A DNA stretch of 37,479 bases from a bacterium (GCA_030647415.1 JAUSKB010000025.1:1-37479); one strand, 5' to 3'. Counted from the first letter of the stretch, positions 1,265 to 36,822 are shown. A program made the numbers and translations. Notes: a model not told the origin generated them from the sequence alone.

Positions 1265-1392
1265 ACCCCCACAGTAGTAATAAGGTCGAACCTACTACAT
1301 AACGAACAACAAACAACCAACGACGGACAACGGCAGGCAGCTGGCAGATTTTTGTCGGTTGTAGGTTGTTGGTCGTCAGTTACCCACTTTTT

Positions 1393-2592
1393 ATGGCAGA
1401 AAAAGAGAAGTTCCAGCGAACGAAGCCTCACGTGAACGTGGGGACCATCGGGCACGTGGACCACGGCAAGACCACCTTGACCGCGGCCATCACGCACGTG
1501 CTCCACATGAAAGGTCTGGCAAGGAAGGTGGAGACGGTCGACATGATCGACAACGCGCCGGAGGAGCGGGCGCGCGGCATCACGATCGCCCTCCACCACT
1601 CCGAGTATGAGTCCGAGAAGCGGCACTACGCGCACATCGACGCGCCCGGCCACGCGGACTACATCAAGAACATGATTACGGGAGCCGCCCAGATGGACGG
1701 CGCGGTGCTCGTGGTTTCCGCCGCAGACGGCCCCATGCCGCAGACGCGCGAGCACATCCTCCTGGCACGCCAGGTCGGCGTACCCGCCATCGTTGTGTTC
1801 CTCAATAAGTGCGATATGGTAGACGACCCCGAGCTCATCGACCTCGTGGAATCCGAGATACGAGAGCTTCTGAAAAAGTACCAGTTCCCAGGCGACACAA
1901 CCCCCATCATCCGCGGGTCGGCCCTGAAGGCGCTCGGAGCGAAGTCGCCGGATGACGAGGTAGCGAAGCCCATCCTTGAACTCATTGCGGCACTCGACAA
2001 CTTCATTCCGGAGCCGGTGCGCGACATCGACAAGCCGTTCCTGATGCCCATCGAGGACATCTTCTCGATTGAGGGTCGTGGCACCGTCGTGACCGGCCGC
2101 GCAGAGCGCGGCATCCTCAAGGTGAACGAGGAGGTCGAGGTGATTGGGCTCAAGCCCACGCAGAAGACGGTTGCAACCGGTATCGAGATGTTCCAGAAGC
2201 TCCTCGACGAGGCGCGCGCGGGCGATAACGTCGGAATCCTCCTGCGGGGTCTGAAGAAGGAGGATGTGGAGCGCGGTCAGGTCATCGCGAAGCCCGGTTC
2301 GGTCACCCCGCACACGGAGTTCACCGCGGAGATTTATGTGCTTTCGAAGGAAGAGGGCGGTCGGCACACCCCGTTCTTCAAAGGCTACAAGCCGCAGTTT
2401 TACATCCGGACGACCGATGTAACCGGCGAGGTGGTCCTCCCCGAGGGCACCGAGATGGTTATGCCGGGTGACACCGTCTCCATTACCGTGAAGCTCATCG
2501 CGCCGGTGGCGCTCGAAGAGAAGCAACGGTTCGCAATCAGAGAGGGAGGCAAAACGGTCGGGGCAGGTGCCGTCACGAAGATCATTAAGTAA
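1393..2592 (+). CDS. tuf: Elongation factor Tu
   Basis: [55 protein letters not shown]; start trimmed from the ORF track start at 1366. Confidence 0.97.
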
Positions 2593-2684
2593 CTAACAAC
2601 CAACGACTGACGACCAACAACAGCCCACTTCAGAATTCGTTGTTGGTCGTAGGTTGTTGGTCGTAGGTTGTGCGTTAACCAGTC

Positions 2685-3020
2685 ATGGCAAGAAAAGACG
2701 AGGAACTTACAAAAGAACAACGCCTTCGACTTCGTGTCAAATCATATGACGCGAAGCTCATCGATAACTCGGTCCGGCAAATCATCGAGGCCATCCGCCG
2801 CCAGGGCGGCGAGGTGATCGGTCCGGTACCGCTCCCCACGGAATTCAAACGGTACACCGTAAACCGCTCGACGTTCGTGCATAAAAAGTCCGGGGAGCAG
2901 TTCGAGATGCGGGTGCACAAGCGCCTCATCGACATTCCGTCGCCGAGTCAGAAGATTATCGAATCGCTGACCGACCTGAACCTGCCCGCCGGTGTTGATG
3001 TGGAGATTAAGATGGGGTGA
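2685..3020 (+). CDS. rpsJ: 30S ribosomal protein S10
   Basis: LRLRVKSYDAKLIDNSVRQIIEA...GPVPLPTEFKRYTVNRSTFVHKKSGEQFEMRVHKRLIDI. Confidence 0.96.
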   Translation: MARKDEELTKEQRLRLRVKSYDAKLIDNSVRQIIEAIRRQGGEVIGPVPLPTEFKRYTVNRSTFVHKKSGEQFEMRVHKRLIDIPSPSQKIIESLTDLNLPAGVDVEIKMG

Positions 3021-3133
3021 TTGAGTGACCCAATCATGACAAAAACCCAGAATGGTCCAACACGATACCTTGACGGCGGAACCGTGGTAGGGTAGGATTT
3101 TCCTGGTTGGCCCGCGGCAATGCCGTATGAAGG

Positions 3134-3160
3134 ACAGCAGGGCGGTCCCCTGTTGTTTTT
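3134..3160 (+). terminator. Terminator/attenuator-like hairpin between rpsJ and rplC
   Basis: ACAGCAGGG-CGGT-CCCCTGTTGT followed by TTTT. Confidence 0.5.
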
Positions 3161-3168
3161 ATGTCACG

Positions 3169-3256
3169 AGGCTCGGCCTCGTGATGCCGAGGCCAGCAGG
3201 ACGAGGCGCGGGAGGCTCGGCCTCGTGATGCCGAGGCCAGCAGGACGAGGCGCGGA
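3169..3256. repeat. Tandem duplication, 2 x 44 bp GC-rich hairpin unit
   Basis: aggctcggcctcgtgatgccgaggccagcaggacgaggcgcgg occurs at 3169 and again at 3213. Confidence 0.9.
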
Positions 3257-3298
3257 AAATATGACGGATACCCCAGTTTTTGTATGTGCATATATAGT

Positions 3299-3757
3299 AT
3301 GTCAAAAATTCTTGCAAAGAAGATACGAATGACCCAGCTCTGGCGAAACGACGCCGTCCTGCCGGTTACCGTACTTTCCTATTGTGGCCTGGAAGCGCAA
3401 CTTCCGGCTTTTACCGAGCTTACGCCCGGCATGAAGGTGCGGATATCCGGTACCTCGAAGGGGAAGGGATACCAAGGTGTGGTGAAGCGGCATGGATTCC
3501 ACGGCGGACCAAAATCGCACGGGCAGAAGAACCGTCTTCGCGCTCCCGGATCAATCGGCAGCACTGCGCCGCAGCGGGTGATTAAGGGCCGCCGCATGGC
3601 CGGTCACATGGGCGCGGTTCGCGTGACGGTACGGAACCTTACCGTCGTCGCAGTTGATGCCGAAGCGCGGACCATATCGGTCCGCGGCGCCGTTCCAGGC
3701 ATGCGGGGGAGCAAAATCGAGATTCGGCAAGCTACAGCATTAAGCACTAAATCCTAA
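3299..3757 (+). CDS. rplC: 50S ribosomal protein L3, short form (152 aa)
   Basis: KIRMTQLW...VRISGTSKGKGYQGVVKRHGFHGGPKSHGQKNRLRAPGSIGSTAPQRVIKGRRMAGHMGAVRVTVRNLTVV; start moved to MSKILAKKIRMTQ. Confidence 0.93.
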   Translation: MSKILAKKIRMTQLWRNDAVLPVTVLSYCGLEAQLPAFTELTPGMKVRISGTSKGKGYQGVVKRHGFHGGPKSHGQKNRLRAPGSIGSTAPQRVIKGRRMAGHMGAVRVTVRNLTVVAVDAEARTISVRGAVPGMRGSKIEIRQATALSTKS

Positions 3758-3933
3758 ATTCGAAATCCTAAATGGTTCGACGAGCTCATCATCCCGAGCG
3801 AAGCCGAGGGACAAATCCAAAATCCTAATGATCCAATTCGAAACAATGCCTCGCTTCCCAGAATTTCGTTTAGAATTTCGGATTTCGATATTGTTTAGAG
3901 TTTAGAATTTCGGATTTAGAATTTACCAGTACC
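3742..3933. repeat. Family A intergenic inverted repeat (A1) with REP-like core GGTTCGACGAGCTCATCATCCCGAGCGAAGCCGAGGGA
   Basis: Left side aaatcctaaattcgaaatcctaaat; right side gaatttcgtttagaatttcggatttcgatattgtttagagtttagaatttcggatttagaattt. Confidence 0.75.
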
Positions 3934-3934
3934 T

Positions 3935-4633
3935 ATGCCAACCATTTCAATCATGAACCCAGATGGTGCCGAAGTCGGCACGATGAACCTGCCCGAGCGG
4001 CTTTTTGGCGTCCACTGGAACGCCGACTTGGTGCACCAGGTCATGGTCGCCGAGCGTTCGAACCGCCGACAGCCCCTCGCGCACACAAAGGACCGGAGCG
4101 AGGTTGCGGGCGGTGGGCGGAAGCCCTGGAAGCAGAAGCACACCGGTCGCGCGCGAGCAAGCTCGTCACGCTCGCCGCTTTGGTCCGGCGGTGGCATCAC
4201 GTTCGGGCCACGGAACGACCGCAATTTCACGAAGAAGGTGAACGTGAAGATGCGCCGCACGGCGCTCGCCGTCGTGCTCTCGCGGAAGCTCACGGATGGG
4301 GAAGTTCGAGTCGTCGACTCGTTCGTGCCTCGGGAGCCGAAGACCAAGGTGGTCGCCGCCATGCTTCGCCGCGTCGTCGGCGTCGCCGGTGAATCACTCT
4401 GTGTCGTTCCCGCGGGGAGCACCGCAGCATTCCGCGCGGCACGAAACATTCGGAAAACTGCCGTGGTCACGGCATCGGGCGTTAATCTCTCTGCGTGCCT
4501 CGAGCACCGATACCTCGTTTTCGACCGGAAGGGGCTCGACGCATTCATTGAAGCGCAAAACTCTAAGCACGAAGCCCGAAACCCTAAACAAATCCGAAAT
4601 ACGAAACCTCAAATCCGAAACAAATCCGTTTAG
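3935..4633 (+). CDS. rplD: 50S ribosomal protein L4 with repeat-encoded C-terminal tail
   Basis: RQPLAHTKDRSEVAGGGRKPWKQKHTGRARASSSRSPLWSGGGITFGPR is the L4 signature; tail NSKHEARNPKQIRNTKPQIRNKSV lies in a repeat. Confidence 0.94.
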   Translation: MPTISIMNPDGAEVGTMNLPERLFGVHWNADLVHQVMVAERSNRRQPLAHTKDRSEVAGGGRKPWKQKHTGRARASSSRSPLWSGGGITFGPRNDRNFTKKVNVKMRRTALAVVLSRKLTDGEVRVVDSFVPREPKTKVVAAMLRRVVGVAGESLCVVPAGSTAAFRAARNIRKTAVVTASGVNLSACLEHRYLVFDRKGLDAFIEAQNSKHEARNPKQIRNTKPQIRNKSV

Positions 4634-4694
4634 AATTTCGGATTTCGATATTGTTTAGAGTTTAGAATTTAGGATTTAGAATTTACCAGCAACT
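4557..4694. repeat. Family A intergenic inverted repeat (A2), L4-L23
   Basis: aagcacgaagcccgaaaccctaaacaaatccgaaatacgaaacctcaaatccgaaacaaatccg / tttagaatttcggatttcgatattgtttagagtttagaatttaggatttagaattt. Confidence 0.8.
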
Positions 4695-5024
4695 ATGGCA
4701 TCGAAACCAAAAACAGAACATTCCGGCGCATCTTCACCAGAGGCACTCGTCCGCTACATCGGCGTCATCGAACGCCCGCACATGAGCGAAAAGGCCTACC
4801 GGCTCGCCGCGTTACGTCAGTACGTGTTTGTTATCGGCAAGCGTGCCACGAAGCGGCAGGTCCAGGAGGCGGTTGAGCGTCGGTATGGTGTTACGGTAAT
4901 CGCGGTCCAGACCATGCGCGACCGGCGTAAGTCCCGCCGTTGGCGCGGGGTGGAGCGGACGCTGACGCCGCGGAAAAAGGCAATTGTCACCCTTCCCGAG
5001 GGTCAAAAGCTCGAACTCGCATGA
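4695..5024 (+). CDS. rplW: 50S ribosomal protein L23
   Basis: RPHMSEKAYRLAALRQYVFVIGKRATKRQVQEAVERRYGVTV. Confidence 0.92.
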   Translation: MASKPKTEHSGASSPEALVRYIGVIERPHMSEKAYRLAALRQYVFVIGKRATKRQVQEAVERRYGVTVIAVQTMRDRRKSRRWRGVERTLTPRKKAIVTLPEGQKLELA

Positions 5025-5845
5025 AATCCTACCATCCCAGCTCACCGGGCCGGCGGCAGATGACCGTCGTCGACTACTCGCCGCTCACGTCGGGCACGCC
5101 CCGGCGGAAGTCGCTCACGCATCGCATTACCCGCAAGGCAGGGCGCAACCACTCGGGCCGTATCACCGTTCGCCACCAGGGCGGCGGTGAGAAGCGGCTG
5201 TACCGTACCGTTGATTTCACCGGTGGTCCCGGTGGCGTGTCGGGGCAGGTGCTGTCCATTGAGTACGACCCGTACCGCACGGCATTTATCGCATTCGTTG
5301 CATACCGGAGTGGTGAGCGCCGCTATATCCTTGCGCCGGACGGCCTCGTAGCCGGGGAAACAATACTGAATGGTCCCGAGGCACCGCTCACCGTAGGCTG
5401 CCGGACCTCGCTTGGTCGGATTCCCGCCGGTTCGTTCGTGCACAACGTGGAGATTCGGCCGAACGGCGGCGGGCAGCTTGCGCGGTCCGCGGGCGTGTCG
5501 GTGCAAATCCTGGCTACCGAGGAGGGGCTCACGCTTCTGAAGCTCGCCTCGGGTGAGACGCGGAAGGTGCCCTCGGCGTGCGCCGCATCGATTGGCCAGG
5601 TATCGAACCGCGACCACAATCTCACCGTCTTCGGAAAAGCAGGCCGCTCGCGATGGGTCGGCATTCGCCCCACGGTCCGCGGCAAGGTCATGAACCCGCG
5701 CGACCACCCCTATGGCGGCGGCGAAGGCCGCACGCAACGCGGTACTCGACGTCCGAAGACGAAGTGGGGTAAAATCACCGGTGGTCGAAGGACACGCAAT
5801 CCGAAGAAGTGGTCAAGCGCGCTGATTGTGAAGCGCCGAAAATAA
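5021..5845 (+). CDS. rplB: 50S ribosomal protein L2
   Basis: SGRITVRHQGGGEKRLYRTVDF..., GRSRWVGIRPTVRGKVMNPRDHPYGGGEGR; ATGA overlap with the L23 stop; start trimmed from 4940. Confidence 0.96.
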   Translation: MKSYHPSSPGRRQMTVVDYSPLTSGTPRRKSLTHRITRKAGRNHSGRITVRHQGGGEKRLYRTVDFTGGPGGVSGQVLSIEYDPYRTAFIAFVAYRSGERRYILAPDGLVAGETILNGPEAPLTVGCRTSLGRIPAGSFVHNVEIRPNGGGQLARSAGVSVQILATEEGLTLLKLASGETRKVPSACAASIGQVSNRDHNLTVFGKAGRSRWVGIRPTVRGKVMNPRDHPYGGGEGRTQRGTRRPKTKWGKITGGRRTRNPKKWSSALIVKRRK

Positions 5846-5962
5846 TGTGATACCAATATGCTAATTCATTCGAATGATACAAATAATACGAATATGGGCC
5901 CCATCGAGCCATTCGTATGATTGGTATCATTCGTACCATTCGTATATTGGTATCGTAATCAA
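5846..5962. repeat. Family B intergenic inverted repeat (B1), L2-S19
   Basis: gataccaatatgctaattcattcgaatgatacaaataatacgaat / attcgtatgattggtatcattcgtaccattcgtatattggtatc. Confidence 0.85.
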
Positions 5963-6286
5963 ATGTCACGAAGCTCTAAAAAAGGCCCGTGGGTAGACCC
6001 CCGGCTCGTAGAAAAGATAGCAAAGCTCGGTGCGAAGCCGGGCGACCAGACGGTCATAAAGACCTGGTCACGGTCGTCGGAGCTCGCGCCCGAGATGGTC
6101 GGGCTCACGTTTGCCGTCCATAACGGGAAGGATTTCATCGAGGTCCGTGTGACAGAGGATATGGTTGGCCACCGCCTCGGTGAGTTCTCGCCGACCCGCA
6201 AGTTTATTCGGCACGGCGGGAAGATGCAGAAGGATCTCGAGCAGTCGAAGGCGGCCACGCCCGCCGCAACACCCGCGAAGAAATAG
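5963..6286 (+). CDS. rpsS: 30S ribosomal protein S19
   Basis: [15 protein letters not shown]...[50 protein letters not shown]. Confidence 0.96.
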
Positions 6287-6433
6287 AGTAATCGCGAATA
6301 ATGCTAATGCAATCCGTAATAATGCGAATGAAACAAGTAATCACGAATAATGCGAATAGCAGATATAATAATGTGAATGAAATGCGCATGTATTCGCATT
6401 ATTTGAGTTAAATTAGCATTATTCGCGATTACT
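6287..6433. repeat. Family C intergenic inverted repeat (C1), S19-L22, perfect 22-bp terminal arms
   Basis: AGTAATCGCGAATAATGCTAAT at 6287-6308 and its exact reverse complement at 6412-6433; the left arm starts right after the S19 stop, the right arm ends 3 nt before the L22 ATG. Confidence 0.93.
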
Positions 6434-6436
6434 CCT

Positions 6437-6973
6437 ATGATTACCGCAACCGCAAAACTCCGCTATCTGAAGATTACGCCTCGCAAGGCGCGGTTCGTGG
6501 TGGACACGATTCGTGGGTGCTCGGTAAACGTTGCGGAGGCGCGGCTTTTAGTCTCCCCGCAGCGCTCGAGCGCACCGATTTTGAAGCTCCTCCGGTCCGC
6601 CGTTGCGAACGCGCGACAGAACGCGAAGCTCGACCCCGCAAAGCTCGTTATCACGGAGATCCGTGTCGACCAGGGGCCGAAGACAGGTCGCTGGATGCCG
6701 CGGGCCCGCGGTTCGGCGGGGCTTATTGAGCGGAAGAGCTGCCACATCTCGATCGTGCTCGCGGAATCGGCGACGGTGAAGTTGCCACGCTACACGATTG
6801 TTGCACCGGCGCACCCGATGAAGAAGAAGCACGAGCACAAGAAGGCGGGAAAGAGGAAGGTGCCGCACGCGGCGGCCGAGACGGGAGATACCGAGAAGCA
6901 CGATGAGGTCGGACCGGTGCCGAAACCCGGGAAGGGCTACCTGAAGCGGATGTTCCGGCGGAAGAGCGTGTAG
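6437..6973 (+). CDS. rplV: 50S ribosomal protein L22 with long charged C-terminal extension
   Basis: AKLRYLKITPRKARFVVDTIRG...RWMPRARGSAGLIERKSCHISIVL; extension HPMKKKHEHKKAGKRK...KRMFRRKSV. Confidence 0.93.
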   Translation: MITATAKLRYLKITPRKARFVVDTIRGCSVNVAEARLLVSPQRSSAPILKLLRSAVANARQNAKLDPAKLVITEIRVDQGPKTGRWMPRARGSAGLIERKSCHISIVLAESATVKLPRYTIVAPAHPMKKKHEHKKAGKRKVPHAAAETGDTEKHDEVGPVPKPGKGYLKRMFRRKSV

Positions 6974-6976
6974 TGC

Positions 6977-7086
6977 GATACCAATATGCTAATTCATTCG
7001 AATGATACGAATAATACGAATTATGGATGTGAATTGTGGAATATTCGTATGATTCGCATCATTCGTACCATTCGTATATTGGTATC
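6977..7086. repeat. Family B intergenic inverted repeat (B2), L22-S3
   Basis: Arms 6977-7021 and 7043-7086; nearly identical to B3 at 10727-10836. Confidence 0.9.
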
Positions 7087-7097
7087 ATAATCTCTCC

Positions 7098-7787
7098 ATG
7101 GCACAGAAAATCAACCCAAAGACCTTCCGGCTCGGTATCACGGTACCGTGGTCCAGTCGCTGGTTCTTCAAGAAGCCGAACCGATTTTTCCTCGAGGAGG
7201 ACCACGCCATCCGGACCTTTCTCATGGGAAAAGTGCGCGATGCCGGCATTGATGGCATCGACATCGAGCGGACCGGTCCGTCGGTCCGGGTCACTATCAA
7301 GGCGCACCGTCCCGGCCTCATCATCGGTCGCGGCGGCAAGGGCATCGAGGAGCTCCGTGACGGTCTCCTCGTCGCGCTCCGGAAACTTCGTGTGCGTCGG
7401 AAGGTGACGACACCGTCGACCCTACATCTCAACATCGAGGAGCTGAAGCGCGCCGAGGCATCGGCGCCAGTCGTCGCCCAGCAGGTTGCGACGGATCTCG
7501 AGCGGCGAATGCCGTTCCGCCGTTTGATGAAGCGGACGCTTGAGAATGTGATGCAGAACCGTGAGGTGAAGGGTGCGAAGGTTCGGCTGTCCGGTCGTCT
7601 GAACGGCGCGGAGATTTCCCGGAGCGAATGGAAGGCGATGGGTACGATGCCGCTACAGACGCTTCGCGCGAACATCGATTACGGGGAGGCGACCGCATTT
7701 AACACCTACGGCACCATCGGCGTGAAGGTGTGGATATACAAGGGCGAAATTTTCGAAAAATCCGAAGCACGAAGCACGAAACTCTAA
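7098..7787 (+). CDS. rpsC: 30S ribosomal protein S3
   Basis: KINPKTFRLGITVPWSSRWF..., GLIIGRGGKGIEELRDGL (KH domain), VRLSGRLNGAEISRSEW. Confidence 0.96.
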   Translation: MAQKINPKTFRLGITVPWSSRWFFKKPNRFFLEEDHAIRTFLMGKVRDAGIDGIDIERTGPSVRVTIKAHRPGLIIGRGGKGIEELRDGLLVALRKLRVRRKVTTPSTLHLNIEELKRAEASAPVVAQQVATDLERRMPFRRLMKRTLENVMQNREVKGAKVRLSGRLNGAEISRSEWKAMGTMPLQTLRANIDYGEATAFNTYGTIGVKVWIYKGEIFEKSEARSTKL

Positions 7788-7895
7788 ACAAATCCGAAAT
7801 ACGAAACCTCAAATCCGAAACGAATCCGTTTAGAATTTCGAATTTGGAATTTGTTTAGGATTTAGATATTAGGATTTAGATATTACATTTTCACC
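7767..7895. repeat. Family A intergenic inverted repeat (A3), S3-L16
   Basis: cgaagcacgaagcacgaaactctaaacaaatccgaaatacgaaacctcaaatccgaaacgaatccg / tttagaatttcgaatttggaatttgtttaggatttagatattaggattt. Confidence 0.8.
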
Positions 7896-8312
7896 ATGTT
7901 ACAGCCCAAGAAACAAAAACATCGAAAGCAGCAGAAGGGACGTTCGAAGTCCCGCCTCGTCGAGACACGCGGGCTTCGCGTCGCGTTCGGCTCGTACGGC
8001 CTCCAGGCGCTCCAGGCCGGCCGCATCTCCTCGCGCCAGATTGAGGCGGCACGGAAGGTCATCAGTCACACCATGGAGCGAGTCGGGAAGCTCTGGATTC
8101 GCATTTTTCCCGATAAGCCGATCACCAAGCTCCCACCCGAGGTCACGTTGGGCGGTGGCAAGGGCGAGGTCGACCACTATGTTTTCCAGGTCCGCCCTGG
8201 TCGAATTCTTTTCGAGCTCGACGGCGTCCCGGACGCGATTGCCCGCGAGGCGCTTCGGAAGGCAGGGCACAAACTGCCGGTGACCACGAAGATTGTCACG
8301 CGTATCGACTAA
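7896..8312 (+). CDS. rplP: 50S ribosomal protein L16
   Basis: [19 protein letters not shown]...FGSYGLQAL...[40 protein letters not shown]. Confidence 0.96.
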
Positions 8313-8316
8313 CACC

Positions 8317-8544
8317 ATGAAATTACGGGACTTGAAACATGAACGGACGAAAAATGTCATCGAGCTCGGCGCAGAGCTTGTGAAAAGCCAGGTGCGCCTC
8401 GATGGGTTGCGCTTCGACCTCGTGCAGGGTAAGGTGAAGAACATTCGGGAAATTCGCGCGCTTCGGCGGATGATCGCCCAACTTCGCACCCTCATGGGCG
8501 AGGTTGCTGGGATAGCGCCGACGGTTCCCGGACAGAAGACCTAA
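8317..8544 (+). CDS. rpmC: 50S ribosomal protein L29
   Basis: [58 protein letters not shown]. Confidence 0.88.
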
Positions 8545-8548
8545 GCAT

Positions 8549-8845
8549 ATGCGAATACTCACCGGAATCGTCACATCGGACAAGATGCAGAAGACCCGCG
8601 TTGTCGCCGTCACGCGGTCGGTGAAGCACCCGCGGTACCACAAGTACATCACGCGTACTTCGACGTTCAAGGCGCACGACGAGACGAACCAGTATCGGAC
8701 GGGCGACACGGTCGTCATCCGGGAGATTCGCCCGCGGTCGAAGGATAAGCGGTGGACGATAATCGCCCGAATACAGAACGCGAATCAGAGCGAATCAACG
8801 CGAATGTCCGCGAACGGCTCGGGTGATGTAGTGAGCGTCGAATGA
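8549..8845 (+). CDS. rpsQ: 30S ribosomal protein S17 with repeat-encoded C-terminal tail
   Basis: [69 protein letters not shown]. Confidence 0.93.
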
Positions 8846-8895
8846 CATCCATGGCGATTCGATTCTATTCGTGGCAATTCGATAGCATTCGAGCG
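8770..8895. repeat. Family F intergenic inverted repeat (GCGAAT / ATTCG words), S17-L14
   Basis: acgcgaatcagagcgaatcaacgcgaatgtccgcgaacg / gcgattcgattctattcgtggcaattcgatagcattcgagcg. Confidence 0.65.
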
Positions 8896-8903
8896 ATCAA
8901 CGT

Positions 8904-9269
8904 ATGATACAAGAACGATCCATACTCAGAGTTGCAGACAATTCAGGCGCAAAGACGGTCCGGTGTTTTCGCGTGCTCGGGGGAAGCCGGAAGCGATACG
9001 CTCGGGTTGGCGACATCATCATCGCCTCGGTGCAGGTCGCGGAACCCCGGAAGCAGGTGAAGAAGAAGGACATCGTGCATGCTTTGATTGTCCGGCAGCG
9101 TGCGCCGATGCGGCGCCCCGATGGCTCACGGATTCGGTTCGATGACAATGCGGTCGTCTTAATCGAGAAGAACGAACCGCGCGCCACGCGCGTCTTCGGT
9201 CCCATCCCCCGGGAGATCAAGGAGCTGGGGTACGACACCATCGCGTCGCTCGCGGAGGAACTCGTATAG
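8904..9269 (+). CDS. rplN: 50S ribosomal protein L14
   Basis: MIQERSILRVADNSGAKTVRCFRVLGGSRKRYARVGDIIIASV...RVFGPIPREI. Confidence 0.96.
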   Translation: MIQERSILRVADNSGAKTVRCFRVLGGSRKRYARVGDIIIASVQVAEPRKQVKKKDIVHALIVRQRAPMRRPDGSRIRFDDNAVVLIEKNEPRATRVFGPIPREIKELGYDTIASLAEELV

Positions 9270-9403
9270 TAATCGCGAATAATGCGAATCGAAGCGTAAT
9301 AATGCTAATCAAAAGCAAAACACCCATGAAATCTATTCGGCATTGTTCGCGGTTGCTCCCCATTCGCATTATTACTCTCTAATTCGCATTATTAGCGAAT
9401 ACT
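9268..9403. repeat. Family C intergenic inverted repeat (C2), L14-L24
   Basis: AGTAATCGCGAATAATGCGAAT 9268-9289 overlaps the L14 TAG; ATTCGCATTATTAGCGAATACT 9382-9403 ends 3 nt before the L24 ATG. Confidence 0.88.
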
Positions 9404-9406
9404 CCC

Positions 9407-9712
9407 ATGACTATCAAAAAAGGAGACACCATCATCGTCCGCATCGGGAAAAACCGGGGCAAGAAGGGCACCGTGGCCCGGATGTTGCCGTCCCGCGGCC
9501 TCATCCTGGTTTCCGGCGTGAATCTCTATAAGAAGCACGTGCGGCCGAAGAAGCAGGGGGAGAAGGGGCAGCTCGTCGAGCTCATGCGCCCGCTCCAGCT
9601 GTCGAATGTCGCTCTCTTCTGTTCGAACTGCGGCCGCGCTTCCCGGGTGGGATACCGCGTCGACGGTGCGAAGAAGGTCCGTTTCTGTCGCCGGTGCTCG
9701 GTTGCCCTGTAA
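9407..9712 (+). CDS. rplX: 50S ribosomal protein L24
   Basis: IKKGDTIIVRIGKNRGKKGTVARMLPSRGLILVSGVNLYKKHVRPKKQ...CSNCGRASRVGYRVDGAKKVRFCRRC. Confidence 0.95.
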   Translation: MTIKKGDTIIVRIGKNRGKKGTVARMLPSRGLILVSGVNLYKKHVRPKKQGEKGQLVELMRPLQLSNVALFCSNCGRASRVGYRVDGAKKVRFCRRCSVAL

Positions 9713-9722
9713 TCACACCACG

Positions 9723-10313
9723 ATGACTACCGCACACCACCACAAGAACCCGTTGATTGCGAACCTTCCCACTCGCCTCGCCGAGACGTCGAGTCGAGGC
9801 TGGGCTGAAGCTCCGGCGAAGCGGGTTGGGAAGGTTGTGGTGAACGTGGGCGTGGGGAAGCTCCGGAGCCAGGCGAACTTTGACGATAAGGTGCTCCCCG
9901 AGGTCATGAAGGACGTCGCAGCCATTACCGGGCAGCATCCGTCCATCCGCCGTTCCACGAAGTCCATCGCCGGGTTCAAACTCCGCGAGGGCGACATTGT
10001 GGGACTCCAGGTCACGCTTCGCGGCGCGCGGATGCGCGATTTCCTCATGAAGCTGTTTAGCATCGTGCTGCCGCGCGTGAAGGACTTCCGCGGCCTTGCC
10101 CCGACCACCGTCGACCATGATGGTAACTTGAACATCGGGTTCCGGGACCAGGTGGTTTTTCCGGAGATTGAGACGGAAAAGGTGCGGGTCTCGTTCGGCA
10201 TCCAGGTGACCGTTGTACCGAGCGTCCGCGGTCGTGAAGCCGCAGTTGCGCTGTACCGGTCACTCGGGGTACCATTACGGTCGAATATCGAAGCACGAAG
10301 CACGAAATCCTAA
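9723..10313 (+). CDS. rplE: 50S ribosomal protein L5 with repeat-encoded C-terminus
   Basis: KVVVNVGVGKL...ITGQHPSIRRSTKSIAGFKLREGDIVGLQVTLRGARMRDFLMKL; ends RSNIEARSTKS; start trimmed from 9606. Confidence 0.95.
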   Translation: MTTAHHHKNPLIANLPTRLAETSSRGWAEAPAKRVGKVVVNVGVGKLRSQANFDDKVLPEVMKDVAAITGQHPSIRRSTKSIAGFKLREGDIVGLQVTLRGARMRDFLMKLFSIVLPRVKDFRGLAPTTVDHDGNLNIGFRDQVVFPEIETEKVRVSFGIQVTVVPSVRGREAAVALYRSLGVPLRSNIEARSTKS

Positions 10314-10540
10314 ATGGTTCGACGAGCTCACCATCCCGAGCGAAGCCGAGGGACAAATCCCAATGACTCAAATTCGAAATAAATCACCATTTTGCGGAAT
10401 CCCGTTTGGAGTTTCGGATTTCGAATTTGTCCCGACTTTGTTCCGGTTTTACCGAGAATGCTCGACGAAGTCGGCATCGAGGATGCCCGATAGAATCGGC
10501 ATTTCGGATTTAGAATTTAGAGTTTAGGATTTATGCATCT
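10293..10540. repeat. Family A intergenic inverted repeat (A4) with REP-like core, L5-S14
   Basis: cgaagcacgaagcacgaaatcctaaatGGTTCGACGAGCTCACCATCCCGAGCGAAGCCGAGGGA...ggatttagaatttagagtttaggattt. Confidence 0.75.
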
Positions 10541-10723
10541 ATGGCCAAGACATCCGTAATCGCCCGTTCGGAAAAGACCCCGAAGTTCAGCACGCGCATC
10601 GTGCGGCGCTGTTTCCGGTGTGGACGAAAGCGCGGATACATCCGCGATTTCAACCTCTGCCGCATCTGTTTCCGCGAGTTGGCGAGCAAGGGTGAAATCC
10701 CCGGAATTCGGAAAGGCTCATAG
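10541..10723 (+). CDS. rpsN: 30S ribosomal protein S14, zinc-binding type
   Basis: [37 protein letters not shown]. Confidence 0.96.
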
Positions 10724-10726
10724 TGA

Positions 10727-10836
10727 GATACCAATATGCGAATTCATTCGAATGATACGAATAATACGAATTATGAACGCGAATTGTGGAATATTCGTAT
10801 GATTTGCATCATTCGTACCATTCGTATATTGGTATC
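10727..10836. repeat. Family B intergenic inverted repeat (B3), S14-S8
   Basis: Arms 10727-10771 and 10793-10836; near-identical to B2. Confidence 0.9.
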
Positions 10837-10844
10837 ATAATCCC

Positions 10845-11216
10845 ATGTACATCAACCTCCTCATTAGCATCAAGAACGCAGCGCGGGCCGGCAAGGCCTC
10901 GTTGAAAACGCCCTACACCACTATGGATGCGGCGGTCGTCGAGGTGCTCCGCCGGTACGGATTCGTGAAGGCGGTGGAGGTGAAGGGTCGGGGTGTGAAG
11001 CGCATCTTGGACATCGAGGTGAATCCCGACCGGCCCATCCGCGGCGTTACCTTCGTTTCAAAGCCGTCTTTGAAGCGGTACGGCGGATACCGTGCGCTGA
11101 AACCGGTGAAACAGGGGCACGGGCTCCTGGTGCTTTCGACGCCGCGCGGCGTGAAGAGCGCGATGGATGCTCGGCGTGAGCAGGTGGGTGGGCAGCTCCT
11201 TTTTGAGATATGGTAG
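10845..11216 (+). CDS. rpsH: 30S ribosomal protein S8
   Basis: INLLISIKNAARAGKASLKTPYTTMDAAVVEVLRRYGFVKAVEV...RRYGGYRALKPVKQGHGLLVLSTPRGVKSAMDAR...GGQLLFEIW. Confidence 0.95.
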   Translation: MYINLLISIKNAARAGKASLKTPYTTMDAAVVEVLRRYGFVKAVEVKGRGVKRILDIEVNPDRPIRGVTFVSKPSLKRYGGYRALKPVKQGHGLLVLSTPRGVKSAMDARREQVGGQLLFEIW

Positions 11217-11343
11217 AGTAATCGCGAATAATGCGAATGAAACACCCAGTAATAATGCGAATAGAGACCAGAACCGCTTCGAATGCGGGTAGTCGCATGC
11301 ATTCGCATTATTACCTCTGCTATTCGCATTATTAGCGATTACT
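11217..11343. repeat. Family C intergenic inverted repeat (C3), S8-L6
   Basis: AGTAATCGCGAATAATGCGAAT 11217-11238 directly after the S8 stop; ATTCGCATTATTAGCGATTACT 11322-11343, 2 nt before the L6 ATG (21/22 complementary). Confidence 0.9.
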
Positions 11344-11345
11344 CT

Positions 11346-11897
11346 ATGAGCAAAATAGGACGACAACCCATAGCGATTCCGACTGGCGTCACGGTTTCCG
11401 TCGACGCGACCGAGGTGACGGTGCAGGCCGCCGCCGGCGATATCCGCATCCAACTTCTCCGTGGCGTGAAGGTTGCGGTGGTCGGAAGCGAGGTCGTCTG
11501 CGAGCTCGTCGGGACCGGGAAGCAGGCGCGGTCGAGCTGGGGCACGATGCGTGCGCTTATCGCGAATGCGGTCGCGGGGCTCGTGAAGCCATTTGAGAAG
11601 TCGCTGATACTCGAGGGCGTGGGATACCGCGTCACAAAGGAGGGGAACGACCTGGTCCTTGCGCTCGGTTTTTCGCACCCCGTGAAGTATGCCGCAATTC
11701 CCGGCATCACCTTCGAGGTGGGAAAGAATTCCACCGTTACGGTGCGGGGTTCCGACCGTGCACGGGTAGGGCAAGTGGCAGCGGAAATTCGCGCCCTGAA
11801 GAAGCCCGAGCCGTACAAAGGGAAGGGGTTCCACTACTCTGACGAAGTTGTTCGCCGGAAGGCCGGCAAGAAGGCGGCAACGAGCACCACCAAATAA
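11346..11897 (+). CDS. rplF: 50S ribosomal protein L6
   Basis: MSKIGRQPIAIPTGVTVSVDATEVTVQA...LEGVGYRVTKEGNDLVLALGFSHPV...KPEPYKGKGFHYSDEVVRRKAGKKA. Confidence 0.96.
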   Translation: MSKIGRQPIAIPTGVTVSVDATEVTVQAAAGDIRIQLLRGVKVAVVGSEVVCELVGTGKQARSSWGTMRALIANAVAGLVKPFEKSLILEGVGYRVTKEGNDLVLALGFSHPVKYAAIPGITFEVGKNSTVTVRGSDRARVGQVAAEIRALKKPEPYKGKGFHYSDEVVRRKAGKKAATSTTK

Positions 11898-12029
11898 CAG
11901 TAAGCACGAAATTCGAAATCCGAAACTCTAAACAAGCTCGAAATATGAAATTTCAAATCAGAAACGAATCCGTTTGGAATTTCGAATTTGTTTCGGATTT
12001 AGATATTCGGATTTAGGATTTACCCATCT
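11898..12029. repeat. Family A intergenic inverted repeat (A5), L6-L18
   Basis: agcacgaaattcgaaatccgaaactctaaacaagctcgaaatatgaaatttcaaatcagaaacgaatccg / tttggaatttcgaatttgtttcggatttagatattcggatttaggattt. Confidence 0.78.
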
Positions 12030-12383
12030 ATGGCAACCACAAAAAAAACCATCGCAATACGAGCACGCCGGCGAAACCGGGTCCGGGTCCGAATTCGCGG
12101 CACGGCTGCGATACCGCGGCTCACGGTGTTCCGCTCGAATGTCGCCATCTACGCTCAGCTCATTGACGACGCGACCGGGACAACGGTCGTGCGGGCGAGC
12201 TCGCGCGACCTCGTGAAGCGCGGTCCCAAGATGGCGGACGCCACGGCGGTCGGGAAGCTCATTGCCGAGCGCGCGACACCAGCCGGCATCACGGCGGCGG
12301 TTTTCGACCGTGGTTCCTATCGGTACCATGGTCGGGTACAGGCGCTCGCGGAGGGCGCGCGAGCGGGCGGACTGAAGTTCTGA
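12030..12383 (+). CDS. rplR: 50S ribosomal protein L18
   Basis: [51 protein letters not shown]...[26 protein letters not shown]. Confidence 0.95.
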
Positions 12384-12439
12384 CGCGCGTTTCCTGAACT
12401 AGTCAACAAGCAAACGAGCGAACCAACAAACTAACCAAC

Positions 12440-13222
12440 ATGCCACCGACAAACAACACACCGAATAGCACCGCACAACAGCCCATCGCGCCCGCCTCGC
12501 CTTCGCGAGCGCGAAGCGGGCCCGGCGCGAGCCGAGGCGGACCGGGTGGCGGTCGCGGTCCCGGTAGTCGAGGTCCGGGTGGGCGAGGCCCTTCCGCCTT
12601 CGGTGGCGGCGGTCGCGGTCCAGGCGGACGGGGTCCAGGCGGTCGCGGTCCAGGCCGCGGCGGCTATGGGCGGCGGCAGGAACGCACAAGCGAGTACCAG
12701 GATCGGGCGCTTGAGATTCGGCGGGTTTCCCGCGTGATGGCCGGTGGCAAACGCTTCAGCTTCCGGGCGGCGGTTGTCGTCGGGAATCGGAACGGGAAGG
12801 TGGGACTTGGCGTCGCGAAGGGGCTCGATGTGCAAGGCGCGATTGAAAAGGCCCGTCGGTACGCGGAGAAAGCGGTCATCACCATTCCGCTTCGGGACGG
12901 CCGGACAGTCGCCCACGACGTGGAGGCGAAATACGGCGCCGCGATTGTGCGCATAAAGCCCGCCAAGGCGGGACACGGTCTCATCGCGGGCGGTTCGGCG
13001 CGCATCGTGCTCGAGCTTGCAGGCGTCCGAGACGTTTCCGCGAAGATCATCGGTACCACAAAAAACAAGGTTTCAAACGCGCAGGCGACATTGAAGGCAC
13101 TCATGATTATTGCGCAGTCGACGCGTATCAAGAAGCCGATCCAGCCCGTTGCGGCTATGCCGCACGGCAACGAACAAACGGACAAACCGACAAACGAGCC
13201 AACCAATCAACTAGCTAACTAG
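12440..13222 (+). CDS. rpsE: 30S ribosomal protein S5 with Gly/Arg/Pro-rich N-terminal extension
   Basis: Core ALEIRRVSRVMAGGKRFSFRAAVVVGNRNGKVGLGVAKGLDVQGAIEKA...; N-terminus RGPGGRGPSAFGGGGRGPGGRGPGGRGPGRGG. Confidence 0.94.
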   Translation: MPPTNNTPNSTAQQPIAPASPSRARSGPGASRGGPGGGRGPGSRGPGGRGPSAFGGGGRGPGGRGPGGRGPGRGGYGRRQERTSEYQDRALEIRRVSRVMAGGKRFSFRAAVVVGNRNGKVGLGVAKGLDVQGAIEKARRYAEKAVITIPLRDGRTVAHDVEAKYGAAIVRIKPAKAGHGLIAGGSARIVLELAGVRDVSAKIIGTTKNKVSNAQATLKALMIIAQSTRIKKPIQPVAAMPHGNEQTDKPTNEPTNQLAN

Positions 13223-13238
13223 CCAACTAGTAAACTAC
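13170..13238. repeat. Family E (AACN-type 4-nt periodic) spacer; a partner spacer lies at 12397-12438
   Basis: aacgaacaaacggacaaaccgacaaacgagccaaccaatcaactagctaactagccaactagtaaac; upstream aactagtcaacaagcaaacgagcgaaccaacaaactaaccaac. Confidence 0.6.
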
Positions 13239-13239
13239 C

Positions 13240-13668
13240 ATGCAACTCCACACCTTACATGCAGCGACCAGGCGGCGCCCCACGAAGCGCGTCGGGCGCG
13301 GCGGAAAGCGCGGCACGACTTCCGGCAAGGGCACGAAGGGTCAGCGCTCGCGTTCGGGCCATCGCATCCGGCCGGCAGCGCGCGACCTCGTGCTCAAATT
13401 CCCGAAGCTCCGGGGAGTGGGAAACAGTCGTCGGTCCGTGTCCGCAACCATCGTGAAGACAGGCGACATTCCCGCGCTCCTCGCGCGCGCAAGGGTGGCG
13501 GAGCTCACCCGGGAGGTCCTGGTGTCACTCCGAAAGATTCGCGCCGTGAAGGATGCGGTGAAGGTGGTGGCGAACGGGAAGCTCGCGTCCGCCGTCGCCG
13601 TGAACGGTATCCCCGCGACGAAGGGGGCGAAGGCAGAGATCCTGAAATTCGGCGGCACCGTTTCATAA
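13240..13668 (+). CDS. rplO: 50S ribosomal protein L15
   Basis: TKRVGRGGKRGTTSGKGTKGQRSRSGHRIRPA. Confidence 0.93.
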   Translation: MQLHTLHAATRRRPTKRVGRGGKRGTTSGKGTKGQRSRSGHRIRPAARDLVLKFPKLRGVGNSRRSVSATIVKTGDIPALLARARVAELTREVLVSLRKIRAVKDAVKVVANGKLASAVAVNGIPATKGAKAEILKFGGTVS

Positions 13669-13747
13669 CCGACAACCAACGACGTACAACCAACAACCCC
13701 AGTAATTCGCATTATTACCTCTGCCATTCGCATTATTAGCGATTACT
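13668..13747. repeat. Chimeric spacer: family D left arm plus family C right arm, L15-SecY
   Basis: aaccgacaaccaacgacgtacaaccaacaac followed by attcgcattattacctctgccattcgcattattagcgattact. Confidence 0.75.
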
Positions 13748-13749
13748 CC

Positions 13750-15021: not shown

Positions 15022-15285
15022 CGGGCTTTGCCTAAAATCCAGTCGCCTGAGGCGGCCGGATTTTAGTTGCAAAACCTTCACCCCGCATTTTTGCGGGGTA
15101 GCGGGGTCCCGCAGTTCCGTCGCGGCACCGTCCCGCCATGGCGGGACTCGCTCCCATATTAGCGTCGCGCGGTCCGAGACCCGCCCGAACGTACCCCGCC
15201 AGAATGACTCTGCCGGGCTGGCGTTCGGTACGGGCGGGTGTGCCGCTCCGGAACCGCGAAACCCCGCTTGTGGTGGTTGGTAGGG

Positions 15286-15356
15286 GGAGGTCGAACCTCC
15301 TATGGGATGTCCGACATCCAAAATATTACGCATCCCGCATCGGATGTCGGACATCC
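15286..15356. repeat. Three 15-nt palindromes of type GGANGTC-S-GACNTCC
   Basis: GGAGGTCGAACCTCC 15286-15300; GGATGTCCGACATCC 15305-15319; GGATGTCGGACATCC 15342-15356. Confidence 0.85.
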
Positions 15357-15512
15357 AAATATTGTGTAGCCCACTCCAGCAATATTCACGGTCCCCGTTC
15401 TCAGCGATGCACGCCCCCCGGCGGGGGAGGGTGCGCGCTCCACAATACTGCCATCCTCATTGACCATACCGGCGGTAGCCCCCATCCCCAACATCAAATA
15501 TACTTATCGTGT

Positions 15513-17178: not shown

Positions 17179-17886
17179 ATGAAAAATCAACGGGCAGTCG
17201 TGATCTACGGGCCGCCGGGGAGCGGCAAGGGGACGCAGGCGGAGCTTTTGGCACGGAAGTACGGGTTCATCCACTTCGACACCGGGCGGTACATCGAGGG
17301 GCTCATCCGGTCACCACAGGCGGACCGGGACCCGGTTTTGCAGCGCGAACGGGCGAACTACGAGGCCGGCCGCCTCTGTACACCCGAGTGGGTGTTCAAC
17401 GTGACCGCGGACGAGGCGGCGCGGGTCGCCGACGCAGGATTCAGCATCGTCTTCAGCGGGTCGCCGCGCACGATGCCGGAGGCGTTCGAAAGCGTGGGGA
17501 AGGTCCGGGGCAAGCGGTACCGCGGCCTCGTCGCGGTGCTCGTCGCACTCTACGGGAAGCGGAATGTTTCGGTCGTCCAGCTCAAGGTTCGGCCTGCCTC
17601 CTCCCTGAAGCGCAACAGTTCGCGCCGCGTTTGCGTCGAGTGCGACCTTCCGGTTTTGGGCGAGGTGCGGCACCCGCGGTGCGGCTTCTGCGGGAGTGCG
17701 AAGTTCCGGACGCGCAAGGACGACGACCCGAAAAAGATACTGGTGCGGCTTGAGGTGTACAAGCGACAGACCTTCCCCATACTTGCAGAGCTCCGGAAGC
17801 GCGGCGTTTCGGTGCACGCGGTGAACGGCGAGGTGATGCCGTACCTGGTCTCAAGGAAAATAAATAAGAAGCTCGGATTTTTGTGA
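17179..17886 (+). CDS. adk: Adenylate kinase, zinc-lid type
   Basis: VIYGPPGSGKGTQAELLARKYGFIHFDTG; lid CVECDLPVLGEVRHPRCGFCG...RKDDDPKKILVRLEVY. Confidence 0.85.
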   Translation: MKNQRAVVIYGPPGSGKGTQAELLARKYGFIHFDTGRYIEGLIRSPQADRDPVLQRERANYEAGRLCTPEWVFNVTADEAARVADAGFSIVFSGSPRTMPEAFESVGKVRGKRYRGLVAVLVALYGKRNVSVVQLKVRPASSLKRNSSRRVCVECDLPVLGEVRHPRCGFCGSAKFRTRKDDDPKKILVRLEVYKRQTFPILAELRKRGVSVHAVNGEVMPYLVSRKINKKLGFL

Positions 17887-18008
17887 AAATCCTAAATCCT
17901 AATATCGAAATTCTAAACAAATCCTAAATTCCAATTTCTAAACGAATTCGTTTCGAATTTCGTGCTTGGTATTTGTTTAGAGTTTAGGATTTAGGATTTC
18001 GAATTTTC
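17887..18008. repeat. Family A intergenic inverted repeat (A6), adk-map
   Basis: aaatcctaaatcctaatatcgaaattctaaacaaatcctaaattccaatttctaaacgaattcg / tttcgaatttcgtgcttggtatttgtttagagtttaggatttaggatttcgaatttt. Confidence 0.8.
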
Positions 18009-18773
18009 ATGTCAATTCGTCTTAAATCTGCCAAAGACCTCGCTGGTCTCCGGGAATCCGGCGCGATACTCGCCGACGTGCTTTGCGAGCTCGCCTCGGC
18101 CGCCCAAACGGGCATACGTCTCGAGGAGCTTGACCGGCTGGCACGGGCGGCCTTGAAGCGCCGGAAGGCGACGCCCACTTTCCTGAACTACCGGCCGGAG
18201 GGCGCGAACCATCCGTACCCGGCCGCACTTTGCACCTCAGTGAACGACCAGGTGGTGCACGGGCTGCCGAATACTTACCAGCTCCGGAAGGGTGACCTCT
18301 TGAAAATCGACCTCGGCGTCACCTACAAGGGATATATAACGGACAGCGCGACGACGGTCGGCGTGGGGAAGGTGTCGCCGAAGGCGCGGCGGCTCATGCA
18401 GGCGACCCGCGAGGCGCTTGAGGCCGGCATCGCGGCATGTGTGCCGGGCGGCCACCTGGGGGATATCGGCCATGCCGTCGAGCGGACTGCGAGACGGGCA
18501 GGGTGCCGCGTCATCCGGGGGCTTACCGGGCATGGTGTGGGGTTCAAGCTCCACGAGGACCCGCCGGTGCCGAACTCCGGAAAGAAGGGGATAGGGATGA
18601 GTCTGCCTGTGGGCCTTGTCATCGCCATCGAGCCGATGCTCGCGACCGGTTCTGGGGATACCATCCAGCGAGAAGACGAGAGCTACGCGACGGCGGACGG
18701 GTCGCTCTCCGCACATTTCGAACATACAATTGCAATCACCGAAGACGGGTGCGAGATTTTGACTGCGCGGTAG
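18009..18773 (+). CDS. map: Methionine aminopeptidase type I
   Basis: LNYRPEGANHPYPAALCTSVNDQVVHGLP...LKIDLGVTYKGYITDSATT...GLTGHGVGFKLHEDPPVPN...IEPM. Confidence 0.95.
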   Translation: MSIRLKSAKDLAGLRESGAILADVLCELASAAQTGIRLEELDRLARAALKRRKATPTFLNYRPEGANHPYPAALCTSVNDQVVHGLPNTYQLRKGDLLKIDLGVTYKGYITDSATTVGVGKVSPKARRLMQATREALEAGIAACVPGGHLGDIGHAVERTARRAGCRVIRGLTGHGVGFKLHEDPPVPNSGKKGIGMSLPVGLVIAIEPMLATGSGDTIQREDESYATADGSLSAHFEHTIAITEDGCEILTAR

Positions 18774-22950: not shown

Positions 22951-23901
22951 TTATCGTACCACAAATCCGGGTCCAGATTCGACTACCAGGTCGAGCAGGG
23001 TAAGCATGGTGAGTTCCGCTCCCACCACGTTTGGTGCAAGACCGGTCGCGGCCGAGATGTCATCAGGGCGCTGCGTCGTCGTGGAATGGGAGAGGTGGTC
23101 GAAGATGCGGCGCTGTGATTCCGAGAGGAGCGGTAGCGTGCGTTGCGTCACAGACCGTTTTTCCGCCGCTTCCGAGGCCGCAAGCCCGAGGTCTTCGAGG
23201 ATGTCGTCGGCCGTGGCAATGAGCCGCGCGCCCTCGCGGATGAGCCGGTGCGATCCCGCGAAGTTTGGGTGCCGGGCGGGGCCGGGAAGGACGAATACCT
23301 CGCGTCCCTGCTCCAGGGCGTACTTCGCGGTGACGAGGGTTCCGGAGCGCGCTGGCGCCTCAATGATGACTGTCGCGAGGGCAAGGCCGCTCACGATTCT
23401 GTTTCGCGCCAAAAACTGGCTAGGGAACGCCGGCGTGCCCAGCGGATACTCAGAGAGGAGGCAGCCGTTTCGTTCCAGGATACGGCGCGCCAACTGTTCG
23501 TGTGACGGGGGGTACACGGTATCGAGCCCGTTCGCCAGGACCGCGACTGTTCTCCCGCCGCCCTGGAGCGCTCCTTCGTGTGCCGCGGCGTCGATGCCGA
23601 GCGCAAGCCCGGAGACGACCACAATGCCATGCCGGGCGAGGTCCCGTGCGATTTCACGTGCGACCATCAGCCCGTCATGCGTTGCCTTTCGGGTCCCCAC
23701 AATCGCGATGTGCGGCGTGCCCGCCGGCGGGAGCGAGCCGCGGACGAAAAGCTCGCTCGGGCAGCCCGGCGTTTCACGGAGCTGCCGCGGATACGATTCG
23801 TCCGTTGCCGGGACTCGGGAAATATCGGCGTTCACGACCTGTGGTATAATTGCAGTATACCCTGTTAGAGATTTGCGCGCATACTCTGTGTATATGTACA
23901 T
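22951..23901 (-). CDS. dprA: DNA processing protein DprA/Smf (start may be GTG at 23835)
   Basis: IAIVGTRKATHDG...VVSGLALGIDAAAHEGAL...TVAVLANGLDTVYP...SEYPLGTPAFPSQFLARNRIVSGLALATVIIEAPARSGTLVTAKYALEQGREVFVLPG. Confidence 0.94.
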   Translation of the reverse strand: MYIYTEYARKSLTGYTAIIPQVVNADISRVPATDESYPRQLRETPGCPSELFVRGSLPPAGTPHIAIVGTRKATHDGLMVAREIARDLARHGIVVVSGLALGIDAAAHEGALQGGGRTVAVLANGLDTVYPPSHEQLARRILERNGCLLSEYPLGTPAFPSQFLARNRIVSGLALATVIIEAPARSGTLVTAKYALEQGREVFVLPGPARHPNFAGSHRLIREGARLIATADDILEDLGLAASEAAEKRSVTQRTLPLLSESQRRIFDHLSHSTTTQRPDDISAATGLAPNVVGAELTMLTLLDLVVESGPGFVVR

Positions 23902-23963
23902 GGTTTACAATCAGGAGTACCAGAGTCGTAGCCGAGAGATTGTACGCAAATCTCTAACAGGGT
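23859..23963. repeat. Inverted repeat with perfect 19-bp arms between dprA and the pilO-like gene
   Basis: ACCCTGTTAGAGATTTGCG 23859-23877 / CGCAAATCTCTAACAGGGT 23945-23963. Confidence 0.9.
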
Positions 23964-24021
23964 AAACCCCAGAGATTTACACACACGCCGCTCAAATCGG
24001 AAACCCCATTCACCCGCCACC

Positions 24022-24830: not shown

Positions 24831-25042
24831 TGGGCGTGGAAGGAATCGAACCTTCGACCTCCAAATTATCAGTTTGGCGTTCTACTTCACCCCGTTAGAC
24901 TTGGGCAGTGGGCACGGGAGGGATCGAACCTCCGACCTCCAAATTATCAGTTTGGCGTTCTACCACTGAACTACGTGCCCAAGTCTAATGGGGCAAGCTG
25001 TCAGCCGGAGGCTGATCCGCCTCTGGCGGAAACTACACGCCC
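24831..25042 (-). pseudogene. Interrupted tRNA-Ile-like gene: 5' part (25030-25042) and 3' part (24831 to about 24895) separated by an intact tRNA-Ile and hairpins
   Basis: 5' GGGCGTG-TA-GTTT pairs with 3' GAAC...CACGCCC-A; anticodon arm CCAAA-CTGATAA-TTTGG; T-arm GAAGG-TTCGATT-CCTTC. Confidence 0.7.
24909..24980 (-). tRNA. tRNA-Ile(GAU)
   Basis: GGGCACG TA GTTC AGTGGTA GAAC G CCAAA CTGATAA TTTGG AGGTC GGAGG TTCGATC CCTCC CGTGCCC A. Confidence 0.95.
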
Positions 25043-36741: not shown

Positions 36742-36822
36742 GTTCACAACCAATGACCAACAACCTACAACGCCAGAGCTCTCACTTCTGGTGTTCGTTG
36801 TTGGTTGTGGGTTGTCGGTTAT
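36742..36822. repeat. Family D intergenic inverted repeat, lepA-ftsB
   Basis: acaaccaatgaccaacaacctacaacg ... cgttgttggttgtgggttgtcggtt. Confidence 0.75.

Follow-up and report, generated by a model that had tools for sequence, protein, structure and literature searches.

The gene junctions of the tuf-secY ribosomal protein (r-protein) operon in a Patescibacteria genome are mostly filled with palindromes whose arms are arrays of degenerate words (7 or 9 nt in most cases). Here, we report an analysis of these spacers in a 37,479-nt stretch of DNA (GCA_030647415.1, JAUSKB010000025.1:1-37479; the window), which is contig C3 of the genome (964 kb, 38 contigs, 99.65% complete). The phenomenon is real, and the spacers are probably ~60- to 150-bp non-coding palindromic DNA elements, broadly like repetitive extragenic palindromic (REP) sequences and miniature inverted-repeat transposable elements (MITEs), that have become distributed through the genome and, at least in the case of family B, have passed between distant Patescibacteria. 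Copies are dispersed and lie in both orientations, and the words of family B follow a strict code of fixed and free positions. The elements are best read as palindromic mobile DNA specialized for, or confined to, operon junctions.

Intergenic gaps (n = 599) were surveyed in 882 kb of the genome, read in stretches (~92% of the total). Inverted repeats were scored in an einverted-like manner (strong, score of at least 50) and compared with dinucleotide shuffles of the gaps; gene calls were simple, and families were assigned from word patterns. The r-protein operons of relatives were compared at 99 loci (1336 junctions), with one phylum (Actinobacteria) as the outgroup control. The nearest relatives in the collections belong to other genera of the same GTDB family; the closest by SecY were Candidatus Jorgensenbacteria and other metagenome-assembled genomes, with a top identity of 81%.

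A strong inverted repeat was found in 139/599 gaps and in 0/599 shuffled gaps, which excludes chance. Word arrays occupied 16 of the 21 tuf-secY junctions, in agreement with a preliminary description of the window, made from the sequence alone, which had most of these spacers as paired arms; families A, B, C, and D were all present at the junctions named there, adk-map and lepA-ftsB included. The families do punctuate the operon, as that description had it, but are not specific to it: counted by gaps, the genome holds A in 30, B in 27, C in 15, D in 28, E in 3, and a further family, H (GTAATAG words), in 4. In RNA folding, z-scores ranged from -4.4 to -9.6 for L6-L18, adk-map, tuf-S10, and every B and C junction. 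Families E and F, also proposed as palindromic spacers, did not hold up as such: E is single-arm at L18-S5 and S5-L15, with the S5-L15 array mostly in the S5 coding end, and the F words at S17-L14, which begin within S17, fold no better than shuffled sequence (z -0.1).

The dominant word period is 7 nt, and a heptamer period was seen in families A and D and in 31/45 arms of relatives. A universal CNAA core was rejected, being enriched in A, B, C, and relatives but not in D or H. A Rfam 15 gathering scan of the window returned tRNAs only, with no known RNA family at the palindromes, and the form of an intrinsic terminator (GC-rich stem plus U tract) was not found at the elements, whose arms are AT-rich and are followed directly by the start codon. 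No account of palindromic repeats between genes of Patescibacteria emerged from literature searches. The word elements of the window are as follows (all on the + strand; score, inverted repeat; z, RNA folding).

1300..1382, +, family D inverted arms in the tuf leader (seen in the sequence)
2591..2669, +, family D palindrome, tuf-S10 (score 51, z -4.7)
3755..3925, +, family A palindrome, L3-L4, with a nested insert at ~3772-3812 (score 43, z -1.4; sequence)
4562..4685, +, family A palindrome, L4-L23, left arm coding the L4 C-terminal tail (z -3.0; no tail in relatives)
5849..5954, +, family B palindrome, L2-S19 (score 71, z -6.0)
6286..6434, +, family C palindrome, S19-L22 (score 82, z -9.0)
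6977..7086, +, family B palindrome, L22-S3 (score 71, z -4.5)
7759..7886, +, family A palindrome, S3-L16, left arm starting in the S3 coding end (score 48, z -2.0)
8760..8900, +, family F words (GCGAAT), S17-L14, left part S17 coding, hairpin not significant (z -0.1)
9268..9403, +, family C palindrome, L14-L24 (score 77, z -6.0)
10285..10531, +, family A palindrome, L5-S14, with two nested inserts at ~10315-10358 and ~10426-10500 (z -2.7; sequence)
10727..10836, +, family B palindrome, S14-S8 (score 71, z -6.7)
11214..11346, +, family C palindrome, S8-L6, outer ends including the stop codon and the A of ATG (score 68, z -9.6)
11909..12021, +, family A palindrome, L6-L18 (score 49, z -4.4)
12397..12439, +, family E single-arm array, L18-S5 (z -1.5; sequence)
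13171..13239, +, family E single-arm array, S5 coding end into the S5-L15 gap (sequence)
13671..13748, +, D/C chimera (left arm D, right arm C), L15-secY (sequence)
17884..18009, +, family A palindrome, adk-map, outer ends including the stop codon (score 78, z -8.1)
36746..36820, +, family D palindrome, lepA-ftsB (score 40)

Comparison with relatives showed that the word elements are inserts into formerly tight stop-start junctions. The r-protein junctions of relatives are short (medians of 2.5 to 24 nt, except tuf-S10 and S10-L3), with 1 to 15 nt at junctions that are filled here, and seven r-proteins of this genome (L2, S19, L22, L14, S8, L6, and L15) have their C termini where those of relatives end. 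Clean occupied and empty versions of the same junction were found among relatives with SecY 84 to 93% identical (e.g., L082/L131, L164/L173, and L169/L172); the S14-S8 junction, for instance, measures 127 nt in L082 and 1 nt in L131. Among the Actinobacterial control junctions, 0/235 held an inverted repeat.

Within gaps, placement is close. Arms had been described as following the stop codon and preceding the ATG, and co-directional word elements indeed begin a median of 4 nt after the stop and end 11 nt before the start; their arms take up 83% of the gap, compared with 26% for other inverted repeats, and in 28% of cases extend into the stop codon (2% for other repeats). Genes flanking word-element gaps were co-directional in 98/107 cases, compared with 294/453 unclassified gaps (P 8e-9). 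Since this make-up (98/9) is the same as that of tight junctions (153/14), the co-directional bias is a bias for tight junctions, about one third of which (counting co-directional ones) are occupied. Residual gaps of ≤30 nt hold 46/75 elements (61%) but only 2.6% of co-directional intergenic bases, a preference with P ~2e-53 against insertion uniform per base and 4e-9 per junction; uniform insertion followed by purging from genes cannot yield this concentration. The preliminary description had noted no clear Shine-Dalgarno motif at the junctions, and such motifs are few, but this is not special to the elements (17% at word elements and 15% at other tight junctions).

The word of family B reads nTnCnAAT, with constant and free positions. 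Across 25 copies, tested without the ascertainment bias that comes from selecting on the pattern, constant positions were variant in 22/1203 cases (1.8%) and free positions in 134/715 (18.7%; Fisher P 4e-39), which is not the signature of neutral decay of old copies. Recent copies that keep their recognition positions would give such a contrast; function in place would do so too. Family B is asymmetric, and most of its ~25 dispersed copies face one way, with at least three and up to six reversed. Its grammar was found in 19/240 genomes of the phylum (the reversed-pattern control gave one chance hit in all). Homologues were 84 to 93% identical to the copies here in G034, a member of the same order, and 79 to 89% identical in G149, a phylum-level relative whose S3 protein is 53% identical, with alignment scores of 50 to 65 compared with 17 to 20 for shuffled sequences. 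The usual location of these homologues is a stop-start junction, and both orientations are represented in G149. This likeness in distant hosts, together with patchy occurrence, favors horizontal transfer; judged by sequence comparison, the data speak for spread of family B between distant Patescibacteria, with extreme constraint a formal alternative. Other grammars are also scattered: that of family D occurred in 22/287 phylum genomes and CTAATNN in 29/240, although the reversed-pattern control shows that some CTAATNN hits are plain tandem arrays. Among the matches listed from two pattern scans of viral contigs, almost all were single. The earlier suggestion of a selfish palindromic element in intergenic gaps is thus supported by the dispersal, the two orientations, the occupied and empty junctions, the occurrence of B in distant relatives, and the preference for tight junctions.

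We propose that the constant word positions are recognized by a trans-acting enzyme, which either copies the elements or moves them. The majority of the copies now seen would then be recent, their free positions having drifted along the transmission chain while the constant ones were kept for recognition. Junction specificity may combine a target preference near stop and start codons with tolerance, as the stop codon is often provided or overlapped by an element end. A folded palindrome would also set the stop near the start and should spare translation of essential neighbors, so that operon junctions would be a safe niche. Such bridging is an attractive but inferred reason for tolerance; single-arm arrays (half-elements) also occupy tight junctions, so pairing is not indispensable. 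A broader version, in which a phylum-wide guild of stop-start palindromes moves horizontally by means of a fixed/free code and a putative enzyme, and is tolerated in essential ribosomal operons because the hairpin draws stop and start together and thereby preserves translational coupling, is offered tentatively and may well be wrong.

Several observations weigh against mobility. Family B had no match in phage or plasmid records, and no target duplication flanks its copies (observed 1.75, 2.23 under the permutation null; tested for B only). The orientation of copies is skewed, which is not required of a neutral insert. No mobilizing enzyme could be linked to the words in a search aimed at the Y1 transposase family only: the genome holds two Y1 genes, and neither has B, C, or D words beside it. 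In addition, a word-type element at S3-L16 in G002 and G008 (L090 and L093), which belong to different genera, is 87% identical and gap-free, although 4-fold sites around it are only 41% identical, and its orthologue match (110 bits) exceeds that of any paralogue (≤63 bits). At least one element is therefore old and constrained in place; this conservation is unexplained by pure selfishness and looks like constraint.

REP and REPIN palindromes are mobilized by RAYT. As the mobilizer of the present elements RAYT was rejected, the Y1 genes not being flanked by the word families. One Y1-type transposase gene, on C38 (L209, ~15096-15443), is RAYT-like and lies between its own inverted AAAAAGGGTGTCAGGAACCC repeats. 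Local copying between neighboring junctions was likewise not supported, with no general excess (p 0.19-0.62), although some nearest pairs are neighbors.

Alternatively, the palindromes could be intercistronic RNA hairpins selected by the host, serving mRNA processing, mRNA stabilization, or translation coupling at each operon junction, as the preliminary description had also considered. Abutment of stop and start by the arms, the strong folding z-scores, depletion of elements in convergent and divergent gaps, and the one orthologous element conserved between genera would all suit this role. Selection on an mRNA helix was nevertheless not supported in three tests. RNAalifold on 16 oriented B copies gave a covariation term of 0.05, with 1/25 compensatory pairs, so that compensatory changes are absent among copies in this genome; arms were no more complementary within an element than between copies (z -1.0 for A, 0.2 for C, -0.8 for D, and -1.9 for oriented B); and mismatches on the transcript strand showed no G.U excess (87 G.U, 102 A.C). 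The same operon works in relatives with junctions of 1 to 15 nt, and tight junctions here also hold single-arm arrays. Overall, we consider host-selected hairpins unlikely.

Word arrays might instead be binding sites for host DNA- or RNA-binding proteins that recognize the constant positions and have a regulatory role in operons, an explanation to which we give a low probability. Constant positions vary ten-fold less than free ones, single-arm arrays exist, the G002/G008 element is conserved in place, and a similar proposal has been made for TAACTGA repeats (PMC4679880). However, a 0.96-Mb genome would have to supply a separate reader for each of at least five unrelated word families, most junctions of relatives are without any array, and transfer is a better explanation for the near-identical B elements seen in distant relatives. 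A further possibility is that the sequences grew locally from small palindromes, through replication slippage and strand switching, with no movement between sites. Such growth would be expected to produce tandem words (here mainly of 7-nt period) in inverted arms, but it is very improbable, being contradicted for family B by the same asymmetric arms and ends at ~25 sites and in other genomes, and arms are not more alike within than between elements, unlike the strand-switching expectation.

Entry of mobile elements into r-protein junctions in this phylum is shown independently by a second class of element in relatives (class II; TCCC-stem...stem-GGG directly before the ATG), which duplicates the start codon. 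In L376, the left flank of 5/8 class II elements is ATGAG or ATGAA, the first five bases of the following gene, and the same junctions are empty in its close relative, L374. These elements look like MITEs that target start codons, with variable stems, in essential operons. Class II elements of L376 were located at L2-S19, L29-S17, L14-L24, S14-S8, and S8-L6, and others were seen in L089, L091, L092, L097, L120, and L363. A separate family with TACCCTGTTAGAGATTTGC... terminal repeats (~100-130 bp) is present in the window at 23855-23967 and in ~59 gaps genome-wide; 30% of its co-directional copies extend into the start codon of the next gene, and it is possibly related to class II. Class III elements (~200-240 nt; GGGCTTTG-hairpin-CAAAACCTTA, a variable CCC..GGG stem, then TGCTCAATGTTG..CAACATTGGC directly before the ATG) were found in r-protein junctions of L079, L080, L095, L120, L159, and L160, with a partial copy in the window after secY (15022-15100); L150, whose SecY is 98% identical to that of L159, is without an element that L159 has.

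The left arm of family A begins within the upstream gene at L4-L23, S3-L16, and L5-S14 and codes a C-terminal tail, so that, by comparison with relatives, L4, S3, and L5 carry word-coded tails. Word arrays were also seen to cross 3' coding ends and encode C-terminal tails in S5 (12440-13222), L4 (3935-4633), and S17 (8549-8845); the L4 tail is missing in relatives, and those of S5 and S17 were not resolved by alignment. GC-richer inserts (e.g., TGGTTCGACGAGCTC..CCCGAGCGAAGCCGAGGGAC) are nested in family A elements at 3772-3812, 10315-10358, and 10426-10500, one of which resembles an insert in another genus (L371, S17-L14). The S10-L3 gap holds a tandemly duplicated 43-nt GC-rich unit (3170-3256) beside a terminator-like hairpin. 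At 24831-24980 (minus strand), an intact tRNA gene and a weaker tRNA match share much sequence, a partial tRNA duplication.

Host-dependent bacteria with reduced genomes would be expected to lose selfish DNA and to retain compact ribosomal operons. In this genome, palindromes fill three quarters of the junctions in the most essential operon, and one of the families recurs with little change in distant relatives. A poorly known type of mobile DNA appears to have a refuge in essential operons. If the elements are indeed mobile, the junctions of operons provide mobile DNA with a niche in Patescibacteria, and the constant/free recognition code should lead to the enzyme. The elements also provide natural insertion experiments on the limits of stop-start separation in essential operons without Shine-Dalgarno motifs.

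Among known systems, the short tandemly repeated repetitive (STRR) sequences of cyanobacteria are degenerate heptanucleotides that are also reported in both arms of the tRNA-Leu intron P6b hairpin, and they share with the present elements degenerate heptamers in two hairpin arms; to our knowledge, STRR repeats do not fill stop-start junctions of operons. MITEs are likewise non-coding, ~60-150 bp long, and present in many copies and both orientations with long terminal inverted repeats, but here no target duplication was detected (tested for B) and no partner transposase was identified (Y1 family searched). The closest known palindromes are REP elements, which with BIME (bacterial interspersed mosaic elements) and REPIN are short, dispersed, non-coding, and often within ~15 nt of a stop codon (PMC12306157). 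The present elements are dispersed extragenic palindromes too; they differ in that their arms are word arrays of ~40-60 nt concentrated in tight co-directional junctions and in that these words do not flank the Y1 transposases of this genome. Of the cases described in the literature searched, the nearest is the TAACTGA heptamer, a direct repeat of Beggiatoaceae, Cyanobacteria, and Bacteroidetes that occurs close to start codons inside r-protein operons, in most cases with no ribosome-binding site, and is patchy across phyla (PMC4679880). Both systems place words of 7-nt period near start codons in r-protein operons with few Shine-Dalgarno motifs and a patchy distribution; there, one identical word is directly repeated, whereas here, degenerate fixed/free words form inverted arms that fill the whole junction, with several families per genome.

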